In this document: piece after piece, positions 49,080 through 55,367 of the stretch
Position numbering within the stretch: the stretch's first letter is position 1
Layout of the letters: every line of letters starts with the position of its first letter
Assembly: GCF_001547755.1 (NCBI RefSeq)
Contig: NZ_AP013042.1
Span: forward strand, 1,116,001 to 1,180,000
Source of the DNA: an endosymbiont of Bathymodiolus septemdierum str. Myojin knoll
GTDB taxonomy: Bacteria; Pseudomonadota; Gammaproteobacteria; PS1; Pseudothioglobaceae
Length of the DNA stretch: 64,000 nucleotides
Direction of reading: 5' to 3'
The notes under the pieces: generated by a model
The model's input: only the letters and a program-made list of their open reading frames with translations
What the model was told of the DNA's origin: nothing
The model's database searches: none
Translations under genes and position numbers: made by a program

Positions 49080-49298
49080 TTATTCCTCTTCTTTAACATC
49101 TTTATCAGCATCTTTTTTCGGCGGACAACCGTTATGCAACAGCCACTGGTCTTCATGGCCAATGGCTTTTGCAAATGCAGGAATTTCACACGCTTCTGCT
49201 GTTTTTTCCTTAACTTTGGCATTATCATCGCCAAAACCAAACAACGCCACGGCACTAATACTAAAAACTAACGCCAACAAAATAAATAATTTCTTCAT
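49080..49298 (-). CDS. Small exported two-cysteine peptide
   Basis: This 72-residue protein has a signal peptide (1 to about 19, hydrophobic LFILLALVFSISAVALF) and a mature part with two cysteines: ACEIPAFAKAIGHEDQW, then LLHNGCPPKKD. The tail is highly charged. I do not recognise the family. The residues between the cysteines (AIGHEDQWLLHNG) look conserved enough to hold a metal or contact a redox partner. It is the last gene of the cytochrome cluster, 9 bases after the preceding cytochrome gene, with AGGAGAA before the ATG. Confidence 0.75.
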   Translation of the reverse strand: MKKLFILLALVFSISAVALFGFGDDNAKVKEKTAEACEIPAFAKAIGHEDQWLLHNGCPPKKDADKDVKEEE

Positions 49299-49307
49299 AA
49301 CCTTCTC

Positions 49308-49775
49308 CTATTCTTTATCTTCTACCAATGTATAAGCACCGTGACAAGCAATACAATTTTGCATAATCACCGATACTTGCTTTAACGAATAATCCACATC
49401 TCTCTTTGTCATAGCATCTTCATAGAGTTCAGCAAATTGTGAGTGAATATTTTTCGTAATCTTTTTAAAATGCAGTGGGGTTTTGGCAATAATTGATACC
49501 TGCTTTTCACCCTTAGTATCACCTGTCAATATTTTAGCAATTGCGATGGTTTTATCTATATCTTTATCTGCTGCTGCCGTGACCAATTGTTGCATATGTC
49601 CTAACAAGCCACGCATCTCGCCCAAGACAAAGTTACGCTCATCTTTAGTCAAAACAATCGCTGTTCGCCCATCTGCCGAACGCACCGTAGAACCCATTAC
49701 CACTTGGTAGCCAACGCCAACAACAATGGTTGAAAGCACCACAATAATTACCCATAATGCTTTTATATTATTCAT
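49308..49775 (-). CDS. Exported c-type cytochrome, four-helix c'-like
   Basis: The 155-residue protein has an N-terminal membrane or signal segment (about 6-26) and a single haem-c site near the C terminus, NCIACHGAY (CxxCH). C-terminal placement of the haem and the long helical body (FVLGEMRGLLGHMQQLV, KTIAIAKIL, HFKKITKNIHSQFAELYED) match cytochrome c' and related four-helix cytochromes, which bind gases or carry electrons. The absence of the conserved c' ligand near the N terminus cannot be judged by eye. It lies 12 bases after the SoxH-like gene. Confidence 0.8.
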   Translation of the reverse strand: MNNIKALWVIIVVLSTIVVGVGYQVVMGSTVRSADGRTAIVLTKDERNFVLGEMRGLLGHMQQLVTAAADKDIDKTIAIAKILTGDTKGEKQVSIIAKTPLHFKKITKNIHSQFAELYEDAMTKRDVDYSLKQVSVIMQNCIACHGAYTLVEDKE

Positions 49776-49787
49776 ATTTTTCTCCTA

Positions 49788-50696
49788 TTAAAAATCAAAC
49801 TCCATTTGTTCAAACACCCATTGTGAATTTTTCCCAGTAAACGCTTCATAGTTTTTTAAATAACTAAATTTTGATTGGTCAATCTTACTGATATCCACCA
49901 TACTGCCATCATTTTCTAAAATTTTTCCAACTTCTTTTTTTAAAAATGCTAAATAATCATAAGTATTATGTTTAGCAGTTGCTAAATCAGATGGATTACC
50001 ATGACCTGGCACGATATGTTTTGGCTTAAAACTCGCCATTTTTTCAAATGTATGCATCCAACTTTGAAAATTCTTTGCAGGACCAATGCCCAATATCCTG
50101 TCATTGAAAACAATATCGCCAGTAAACATTGTTTTTGTACTCGGCATCCAAACCATAATATCGCCTACTGTATGTGCCCCGCCAAAATAATATAACTCTA
50201 AATGTATACCGCCAAAATCTAGTGTTTTATTCGCATCAAAAGTATCTGTTGAATAAAAAGGATGCGTGCCATCAAGGGCTTTTCCAATCAAGCGTTTAAG
50301 TTTACTCATATGAAAATCAGCCCTAGCAATCTGATCCTCATGTGTCTTACTTGATGAAATAATCTTAGCGCCCAGTTTGTGAAAATACTCATTGCCCAGC
50401 CAACGATGATCTTGTCCACCTGTATTAATGACAATTTTGATTGGCTTATCCGTTATTTTTTGAATCATCTGATGAATCTGCTGCGCACCCAGATAACTAC
50501 CGCCTGAATCTACCAGTATTACGCCATCCTTTGTTACAATAAAACCATGCGTTGAATTGTTACCCAAATTCTCCTGTGATCTATCAGTCATCTCGCCTAT
50601 TAACGCATACACATTGTCACTCACTTTTTGTATTTTCAACGCAGCCTGCGCAGTTGTCATACCGCCAAGCAATAGCAATAATATAATAATTCTCAT
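49788..50696 (-). CDS. Exported SoxH-like metallo-beta-lactamase-fold protein
   Basis: This 302-residue protein has a signal peptide (1-18, ending TAQA) and a metallo-beta-lactamase fold similar to SoxH and quinoprotein-relay hydrolases: GFIVTKDGVILVDSGGSYLG, HTVGDIMVWMPSTKTMFTGDIVFNDR and HIVPGHGNPSD. The first metal motif, normally NTHYHPDH, reads NTGGQDHRWLGN, so only Asp96 and His97 of HxHxDH remain; His175, Asp194 and His232 are present. It would bind one metal at most. The role of SoxH relatives in sulfur oxidation is unsettled. Its neighbours are c-type cytochromes and a DUF4395 protein. Confidence 0.82.
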   Translation of the reverse strand: MRIIILLLLLGGMTTAQAALKIQKVSDNVYALIGEMTDRSQENLGNNSTHGFIVTKDGVILVDSGGSYLGAQQIHQMIQKITDKPIKIVINTGGQDHRWLGNEYFHKLGAKIISSSKTHEDQIARADFHMSKLKRLIGKALDGTHPFYSTDTFDANKTLDFGGIHLELYYFGGAHTVGDIMVWMPSTKTMFTGDIVFNDRILGIGPAKNFQSWMHTFEKMASFKPKHIVPGHGNPSDLATAKHNTYDYLAFLKKEVGKILENDGSMVDISKIDQSKFSYLKNYEAFTGKNSQWVFEQMEFDF

Positions 50697-50699
50697 TTT

Positions 50700-51317
50700 C
50701 TACCCCTTAATTAAAAATTTAATAATGTTGCCAAACGATAAATACAACAATGCTAATATTGACAGCAAAAAAATAATTTTTTGCATTGTATCTAACTTTT
50801 GAATCGGCAATCGACTCCTTGTTAAATCACATGATTCCCCTGGGCAATGTTGCGCACCACCATGGTGATAAGCATTATAAACCTTGCACCCTACGCAAAT
50901 CCCAAACACCGATTCAAAAAACAACAACCCCAAACACAACGCACAAGTTAAAATATTGATGGGCCCACGAATATCGTTTAATACCACCAAATAAAACATA
51001 ATTAATGCCAAGAAAAACCCGAATGCCCACGCCCATCTTTTCTGCGGAGCACCCACATATTCTGGTGTTTGATTATTCACCATCCAACGCCCCACCACCA
51101 TTGATGGTGAATATTTTGGATTAATAAATACGCGAATGAAAAAATCAAACAAAAACACCGTTACCATTAACTTAGTTGGCTCATTATTACCTGTCAAAAA
51201 TCCATTCAAAAATGCCATAAATGCAAAGAAAAATACAATCCCAGCCGCAGCCCGAACCTCCCGTTCATTCAAAACAAGCACCTCGTAACCCTCTACTTTT
51301 TCACCAAATCCAAACAT
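50700..51317 (-). CDS. DUF4395-like cysteine-containing membrane protein
   Basis: The protein resembles the DUF4395 family: FGEKVEGYEVLVLNEREVRAAAGI, FIRVFINPKYSPSMVVGR, and in the second half GICVGCKVYN, which gives a CxxC after a membrane helix. About four membrane segments are predicted (25-45, 100-118, 123-143, 185-205 of the longer form). A further pair of cysteines is in HCPGESCD. The function of the family is not known; members often stand near thioredoxin-like and sulfur genes. I prefer the ATG at 51317 (MFGFGEKV); an in-frame ATG at 51329 would overlap the cytochrome stop by one base. Confidence 0.78.
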   Translation of the reverse strand: MFGFGEKVEGYEVLVLNEREVRAAAGIVFFFAFMAFLNGFLTGNNEPTKLMVTVFLFDFFIRVFINPKYSPSMVVGRWMVNNQTPEYVGAPQKRWAWAFGFFLALIMFYLVVLNDIRGPINILTCALCLGLLFFESVFGICVGCKVYNAYHHGGAQHCPGESCDLTRSRLPIQKLDTMQKIIFLLSILALLYLSFGNIIKFLIKG

Positions 51318-51328
51318 AGCACCCCTCA

Positions 51329-51769
51329 TTAATTAACCGTAAAAGCCTCATGACAAGCTAAACAATTTTTCATCAACTTTCCTGTCAATTCCGCTAAATC
51401 CTTCATATCATCTGCGTCATCCTCATCTACTTCTGCCGCATTAATAGCCAATTCCTCAAACATCATATGTGTCGGAGCGCCAATTTGTTCAAATGATACT
51501 GGGGTCTTATCTTTAACAGATTGCGGTGTTGCTCTCGCCATTCTATTACCAGAATAGCGCGCTGCTTTAATAATCATAGTTTTATTTCCCGTACCGATAC
51601 CGAACACAATCTGCTGGACGCTCATTAACATTTGTCTCATTTCACTCAGAAATTCCACCTTTTCTTCATCATCTAAACCTAAATGATAACGCTGATCCGT
51701 TGCACCTACTGAAATCTGCATCATTCCCAATGTGCCAAATAATACTAAAAATAGGACTGTCTTTTTCAT
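51329..51769 (-). CDS. Exported cytochrome c'-like protein
   Basis: This 146-residue protein has a cleavable signal peptide (1-22, ending SVGA) and a C-terminal haem site NCLACHEAF. EEKVEFLSEMRQMLMSVQQIVFGI forms the first long helix, and DMKDLAELTGKLMKNCLACH the last, as in four-helix cytochromes c'. It resembles the cytochrome at 49308-49775 in layout and probably arose by duplication. It is the first gene of the cluster, and its start codon lies within an 11-bp tandem repeat. Confidence 0.82.
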   Translation of the reverse strand: MKKTVLFLVLFGTLGMMQISVGATDQRYHLGLDDEEKVEFLSEMRQMLMSVQQIVFGIGTGNKTMIIKAARYSGNRMARATPQSVKDKTPVSFEQIGAPTHMMFEELAINAAEVDEDDADDMKDLAELTGKLMKNCLACHEAFTVN

Positions 51770-51839
51770 ATGTTTTTCATATGTTTTTCAATGTTTTTCA
51801 TATGTTTTTCATATGTTTTTCATATGTTTTTCAATGTTC
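51762..51839. repeat. Tandem 10/11-bp repeats over the cytochrome start
   Basis: Seven units follow each other: TTTTTCATATG (11 bp) five times and TTTTTCAATG (10 bp) twice, in the order 11, 11, 10, 11, 11, 11, 10. On the minus strand each 11-bp unit reads ATGAAAAACAT, so the array forms several ATGs; each opens a four-codon frame (M-K-N-I) whose TGA overlaps the next ATG. The final unit supplies the cytochrome's own start. Because 10 and 11 are not multiples of three, changes in copy number would alter the reading frames. Confidence 0.9.
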
Positions 51840-54800: not shown

Positions 54801-55367
54801 TTATCGTATTTTAATAAGGTGTTTTTTGCGACTAATTCTACCTTCTTGCTCAAGAATTTTCAAAGTGCGATAAAAAGTTTCATGTGCTAAGCCGAGTTTT
54901 TGTGCCATATCTTTGAGTGAATAGGAAAAATGGAATTCAGAATTTTCATCTACCTCGGAATCGAAAAAAGTTGTTACCCTGTTGTAGGCACTATTGATGC
55001 TTTTTATTTCGTTCAATAATCTCAAATCTCGCACTTGCTGGGTGTGGATTTTAAGCAAATCCATTGTGGCATTCGGGTGTTTTTGTAAATATTGCAAAAC
55101 TGTTGATTTATCAAAAGATAAAACAGTGCAGGGGCAATCACAAATGGCGTGACAATGGTATTTATTGGCAAAAAGAGAGGCTTCAGCAAAGGTTTCGCGC
55201 GCGTAGGCAATGTGAATAACCAAGGGTTGCCCATCTGAAGTTTCTCGCACTAATTTGATTCGTCCTTTGTCAAGAAAAAAGAGACGATTAGCCTCTGAAT
55301 TTTGTTGGAAAAGGTAGTCGCCTTTTTTAAAATTTAGGGTTTTATATTTTAGTATTTCTTTAAACAT
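54801..55367 (-). CDS. Crp/Fnr family transcription regulator
   Basis: This 188-residue protein has a cyclic-nucleotide-binding-type sensor domain (about 10-115, with [25 protein letters not shown]) and a C-terminal helix-turn-helix (about 145-185, [29 protein letters not shown]). It lacks the four-cysteine Fnr cluster motif, although CHAICDCPC gives a close group of cysteines near residues 72-80 in the sensor domain, which could respond to redox or metals. The E..R of the recognition helix resembles Crp-type sites (ETFYRTL). It overlaps the flavoprotein gene upstream by 8 bases. Confidence 0.88.

Follow-up and report, generated by a model that had tools for sequence, protein, structure and literature searches.

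Gene content of the locus

We analyzed a 64,000-nucleotide stretch of DNA (the window) from a bacterial symbiont whose genome is assembled as one contig of 1,469,434 bases. ORF analysis of the minus strand between positions 49080 and 51769 identified five ORFs, all of which are real genes. In the 5′ to 3′ direction they encode an exported, c′-like c-type cytochrome with a single C-terminal CxxCH motif (cytA, 51329..51769), a membrane protein of the DUF4395 family (50700..51329), a SoxH-like protein with a metallo-β-lactamase (MBL) fold (49788..50696), a second c′-like cytochrome with an N-terminal hydrophobic segment and a C-terminal CxxCH motif (cytB, 49308..49775), and a small two-cysteine protein defined by alignment, which also begins with a hydrophobic segment (49080..49298). 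Consecutive genes are joined by −1, 3, 12, and 9 bases. An earlier note on this DNA had described five genes on one strand separated by 3 to 12 bases and including two CxxCH cytochromes, a description that fits except for the 1-base overlap of cytA and the DUF4395 gene. The family alignment places the likely start of DUF4395 at Met5 (position 51317), in which case this join would be +11 instead of −1.

Tandem Repeats Finder detected 7.2 copies of an 11-base unit, CATATGAAAAA on the gene strand, at 51762..51838. The repeat spans the start codon of cytA and the adjacent upstream leader and repeats the ATG AAA AA of cytA, and a change in copy number could alter the translation of this first gene of the operon. 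Upstream of the set, on the same strand, lies a gene for a Crp/Fnr-type protein (54801..55367; PF00027, 64 bits), a possible candidate for its regulator.

The DUF4395 protein is a clear member of its Pfam family (PF14340; 88.5 bits, gathering cut-off 24.5), and its branch of the family carries or pairs with a two-cysteine domain. It is predicted to be an integral membrane protein with five helices, which corrects the earlier note, where it was part of an exported cluster. The structure model of a relative from locus L230, in which the two-cysteine domain is fused to DUF4395, has five long helices (pLDDT 87). Positive charges are concentrated in the N-terminal part, in loop 2-3, and in loop 4-5, whereas loops 1-2 and 3-4 have almost none. 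This distribution places the C terminus outside, which agrees with the hydrophobic segment at the start of the small protein where that protein is separate. Six cysteines (C129, C132, C145, C148, C162, and C167; 50829..50945, minus strand) are each present in 61 of 61 aligned DUF4395 sequences. According to the predicted topology, helix 4 carries one pair in its outer half and a CxxC at its inner end, and the third pair is located in an inner loop.

Searches of solved structures by sequence and by fold returned only generic helical bundles for DUF4395. Relatives of DsbB, VKOR, or CcdA were not among the structure matches listed, although DUF4395 may yet be related to one of them; the profile of CcdA, SoxV, and the DsbD membrane domain (PF02683) gave no match up to an E-value of 0.1. 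A literature search found two papers that mention the name DUF4395 but no dedicated study. The small protein has the motif CxxPxFAxxxGHxxxWxxHNGC and matched none of the family profiles searched, nor was a thioredoxin fold found in it.

A two-gene core with variable accessories

A scan of named genomes for DUF4395 returned 80 loci, 67 of them, by our count, outside the family of the source organism. Some names of metagenome-assembled genomes among these loci ('archaeon', 'Woesearchaeota') probably reflect binning errors. In 61 of the 67 outside loci, the two-cysteine domain forms the C terminus of DUF4395 itself and its motif is almost unchanged (CxxPxxAxxxGHxxxWKLHNxC), and within the family a two-cysteine gene stands beside DUF4395 in 19 of the 20 loci fetched (including a remnant, L051, and a fused copy, L050). 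Because they are fused into one protein elsewhere, DUF4395 and the two-cysteine protein very probably act together as one functional unit, the core of the set. The two-cysteine domain is an undescribed one, and DUF4395 is often found near a SoxH gene. Two loci encode a DUF4395 protein ending in two copies of the domain (L212:2921-3793 and L236:120-1043).

Of 83 genomes of the family, 31 carry the DUF4395 locus, intact or as a remnant. Named family members in our search included thiotrophic gill symbionts of Bathymodiolus heckerae, Candidatus Thioglobus, and Candidatus Ruthturnera; the order contains this family only, and the order-level search added nothing further. Depending on the genome, the position between or before the core pair holds nothing, the MBL gene, cytA, cytB, a gene for a two-domain rhodanese, or a version of cytA fused to an acetolactate-decarboxylase-like domain, and many loci with the core pair lack the MBL gene and the cytochromes. 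As the MBL and cytochrome genes vary around the pair, we consider the locus a core of two genes with accessories. The two unusual inserts are an exported rhodanese flanked by DUF4395 and a SoxH-like gene (L044:5646-6569) and an exported protein in which the acetolactate-decarboxylase-like domain (PF03306, 34 bits) precedes the relative of CytA (L048:4302-5384). A Crp/Fnr gene adjoins cytA and DUF4395 in relatives. In many of them, one flank carries genes for an HI0933-type flavoprotein, a C-terminal-thioredoxin-like protein, and an ETHE1-like MBL, and the other flank a gene for a sulfide:quinone-reductase-like (SQR-like) flavoprotein, where the labels HI0933, ETHE1, and SQR are our reading of sequences that Pfam assigns to superfamilies only.

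The variation in accessories could mean that the unit is limited to DUF4395 and the two-cysteine protein, while the SoxH-like enzyme and the cytochromes are products of separate genes for sulfur metabolism or respiration that gather at the same place and act independently. This is consistent with the different accessory genes found at the same spot and with three genomes (G044, G055, and G004) in which the MBL gene lies elsewhere, beside a rhodanese gene. However, the fused gene again has MBL, cytA-like, and cytB-like neighbours in distant lineages (L212, L230, and L235), and the genes in the window are tightly joined, so that we regard independent action as unlikely. At L176 and L177, in family members, a SoxH-like gene is found away from DUF4395 together with genes for a permease, an ArsR-type regulator, and a rhodanese.

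Outside the family, a SoxH-like gene is located within about 4 kb of DUF4395 in 12 of the 67 loci, or 13 with a weak match in L250. With 13 loci, one more than the firm count, the binomial probability of such proximity by chance is about 1e-17 at an assumed rate of 0.5% per locus and about 1e-9 at 2%. An MBL protein in L189 was not counted as SoxH-like, since it has a canonical HxHxDH site. Crp/Fnr genes are near DUF4395 in 13 of the 67 loci and adjoin the fused gene in nine. Related cytochromes occur near DUF4395 in three or four of the 67; a cytochrome in L213, a weak match on the opposite strand, was left out of the firm count. Direct neighbours of DUF4395 are cytA relatives in L034, L037, L040, L041, and L230, and a cytB relative adjoins the fused gene in L212. 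L230 combines Crp/Fnr, the fused protein, a relative of cytA, and an MBL whose site is a variant, and L235 contains genes for a cytochrome, an MBL, Crp/Fnr, a second cytochrome, SoxY, SoxZ, and the fused protein. The co-occurrence by which the earlier note wanted its gene set judged was thus found in other proteobacteria, where the fused DUF4395 has a SoxH-like MBL, a c′-like cytochrome, and Crp/Fnr nearby. We rejected chance co-location of the five genes because the set recurs in unrelated proteobacterial genomes.

Other neighbours of the fused gene include ABC-permease and LolA-like genes in Burkholderiales and Rhodocyclales and, in four betaproteobacterial or gammaproteobacterial loci (L203, L218, L220, and L234), a gene for a protein of about 410 to 430 residues whose N-terminal part contains the motif FWSLRCPHC.

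The SoxH-like enzyme and the cytochromes

The MBL fold of the exported hydrolase is supported by its match to PF00753 (55.7 bits) and by the nearest folds of its structure model (pLDDT 94.7), which are 8d2z (Z 33.9, 273 residues) and 6uxu (Z 32.4); CphA-type enzymes are among the nearest folds. The protein is about 35% identical over 93% of its length to Paracoccus SoxH, whose gene comes last in the sox operon (soxRSVWXYZABCDEFGH). Its metal motif is N91-T-G-G-Q-D-H97 (50406..50426, minus strand) in place of x-H-x-H-x-D-H; with the conserved Asp-His as the reference for counting, T92 and G94 replace the first-site histidines, and D96, H97, H175, D194, and H232 are retained. This pattern of loss and retention makes it likely that the enzyme holds one metal, in the second site, as in CphA-type enzymes. 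The changed metal site had been pointed out in the earlier note. It is present but not special to this locus, because alignments show that NTG(G/S)QDHRWLGN (NTGGQDHRW in the window protein) is the rule across the subfamily, and the same two histidines are absent from Paracoccus SoxH, which reads NENGQGH at the motif (full stretch, NENGQGHAMLGN). The two proteins share the MBL fold, export, the replaced first-site histidines, and an association with genomes encoding soxB. They differ in that Paracoccus SoxH has lost the motif aspartate that is kept in the window protein (NTGGQDH), and in that the window gene lies outside a sox operon and adjoins DUF4395 and c′-like cytochromes. Published work provides context: a proposed role of SoxH is the release of sulfate from SoxY (PMC10045233; PMC11237559), and Sulfurovum indicum induces its soxH1 in response to thiosulfate (PMC10045233).

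The best NCBIfam matches of the MBL protein were the quinoprotein-relay models SoxH_rel_PQQ_2 (170 bits, cut-off 280) and SoxH_rel_PQQ_1 (162 bits, cut-off 300), and Pseudomonas clusters of the quinoprotein-relay type contain SoxH-like genes (PMC12997753). The protein might therefore belong to a PQQ alcohol dehydrogenase system with the cytochromes as electron acceptors. However, it falls far below both curated cut-offs for quinoprotein relay zinc metallohydrolases 1 and 2 (TIGR04558 and TIGR04559), Paracoccus SoxH scores lower still against the same models, and the loci examined contained no quinoprotein gene, all of which makes this role very improbable.

Both cytochromes resemble cytochrome c′ (PF01322) in length and in their C-terminal CxxCH, but the profile match is weak, with 16.8 bits for CytA and 19.6 for CytB against a cut-off of 26.5, and the alignments cover only the last third of the proteins. 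CytB is 29% identical to CytA, and the closest sequence match of the cytochromes among solved structures was cytochrome b562 (E-value 0.0065). Cytochromes of the c′ type bind nitric oxide. Together with the Crp/Fnr genes near 13 of the outside loci, this could point to a response to nitric oxide or oxygen, in which the c′-like cytochromes would bind small gases and the regulator would sense the redox state. Such a function is highly unlikely, given that the cytochromes score below the c′ cut-off and are missing from most loci, and that the links we found are to sulfur genes.

Association with Sox and possible roles

None of the five proteins matched a family of the Sox core (SoxXA, SoxYZ, SoxB, SoxCD) in profile searches, and ORF analysis and profile searches found no sox gene within the cluster. 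The source genome encodes soxB elsewhere (G000:C1:258018-259850), directly followed by a second DUF4395 gene (L002:1231-1965; product 34% identical), which precedes a HupE-like gene. Comparison of coordinates placed soxB and then this DUF4395 paralog about 0.3 to 0.7 kb apart in 15 family genomes, and outside the family soxB, soxZ, and soxY lie close to the DUF4395 locus L250. Of 369 genomes sampled across the class, 59 contained the MBL subfamily, detected with a profile that also recognizes SoxH-like paralogs not adjoining DUF4395, and soxB occurred in 56 of these versus 94 of the other 310 (Fisher's exact test, P = 9e-22, uncorrected for relatedness). Of nine DUF4395-containing genomes outside the family in this sample, eight had soxB (P = 0.003, likewise uncorrected). 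Within the family, all 31 genomes with the DUF4395 locus encode soxB, and the 31 genomes without a true soxB match, most of them from one genus, all lack the locus. Gene neighbourhoods and the co-occurrence with soxB thus give good support to the association of the DUF4395/two-cysteine unit and the SoxH-like hydrolase with Sox. The earlier statement that no known pathway fits the set was too strong, as the hydrolase is a SoxH homologue from a subfamily that co-occurs with soxB, and soxB is itself followed by a DUF4395 paralog; as a candidate for an undescribed system, the gene set is real and recurrent, but it is tied to Sox.

The set recurs in many sulfur oxidizers and probably helps the oxidation of thiosulfate or sulfur by handling thiols and electrons in the envelope. 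Genes for rhodanese, ETHE1-like, and SQR-like proteins surround the locus in relatives, which we count in favour of a link to Sox-type oxidation. We tentatively prefer, with slightly less than even confidence, to view the cluster as an accessory envelope redox module of this process, serving as a relay for thiols or persulfides and for electrons. Of the periplasmic electron-transfer or thiol-oxidation module suggested previously, a membrane and periplasmic version is retained as the best reading, while the unity of the five genes gives way to the core of two.

Mechanistically, the predicted topology and the six invariant cysteines, whose pairs extend from the outer half of helix 4 to the cytoplasmic face, lead us to infer a relay across the membrane. 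DUF4395 would exchange sulfane sulfur or the reducing equivalents of thiols between the cytoplasm and the two-cysteine domain in the periplasm and would thus act in a similar way to SoxV/CcdA with SoxW or SoxS. The SoxH-like enzyme, probably with its single second-site metal, could free a thiol carrier of the periplasm, for example SoxY, of a group bound to sulfur, and the cytochromes might take up the electrons from thiol oxidation and deliver them to the respiratory chain. SoxV/CcdA with SoxW and SoxS, whose thiol transfer serves SoxYZ, likewise combine a membrane protein carrying cysteine pairs with a periplasmic two-cysteine partner and are linked to Sox genes, but DUF4395 belongs to a different family without a PF02683 match, and its partner has no detected thioredoxin fold. 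The YeeE/SoxT and TsuA-type transporters are also membrane proteins with conserved cysteines and a link to Sox (PMC11582611), from which DUF4395 differs in its smaller size and its five helices; the profile searches gave no sequence match to them. A more specific proposal, which we consider speculative and rather doubtful, is that DUF4395 and the two-cysteine domain form an undescribed transmembrane cysteine ladder that carries thiol electrons or sulfane sulfur across the membrane for Sox, with the SoxH-type enzyme clearing the carrier, as an extra route beside SoxV/CcdA and the YeeE-type SoxT. With the DUF4395/two-cysteine protein and SoxH, both the passage of sulfur and reducing power across the membrane during Sox-type oxidation and the role of SoxH become open to experiment, in bacteria that sustain vent symbioses and the cycling of sulfur.

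Alternatively, DUF4395 and the two-cysteine domain could serve general thiol/disulfide maintenance in the envelope by setting the redox state of periplasmic proteins or of the cysteines for haem attachment, and their frequency in sulfur oxidizers would then reflect many c-type cytochromes and exposure to sulfide and not a Sox step. Several gammaproteobacteria have stand-alone DUF4395 genes remote from sulfur genes, some DUF4395 copies in Campylobacterota lack the two-cysteine domain, and thioredoxin-like genes accompany DUF4395 both within the family and on a plasmid of Thiothrix, all of which favours such a general function. It is harder to reconcile with the DUF4395 paralog after soxB in 15 family genomes, with the SoxYZ neighbours, and with the lack of the locus in the 31 soxB-negative genomes of the family, which presumably also make c-type cytochromes. 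We therefore see general maintenance as a minority possibility and continue to favour the accessory role in Sox. The plasmid, from Thiothrix subterranea (L266), carries DUF4395 together with genes for a GDCCVxC protein, a thioredoxin-domain protein, two cytochrome c peroxidases, and an arsenite-oxidase-type small subunit.

Sox itself does not depend on the module, because 21 of the 52 soxB-positive family genomes lack the DUF4395 locus and two genomes (G039 and G040) retain broken remnants. The source genome also encodes a DsbD-type protein, which could be an alternative supplier of periplasmic reductant. The remnants, both in reduced symbiont genomes, consist of a broken DUF4395 gene with a two-cysteine gene or a fragment of it (L051:5457-6230 in G040 and L100:6434-7051 in G039).
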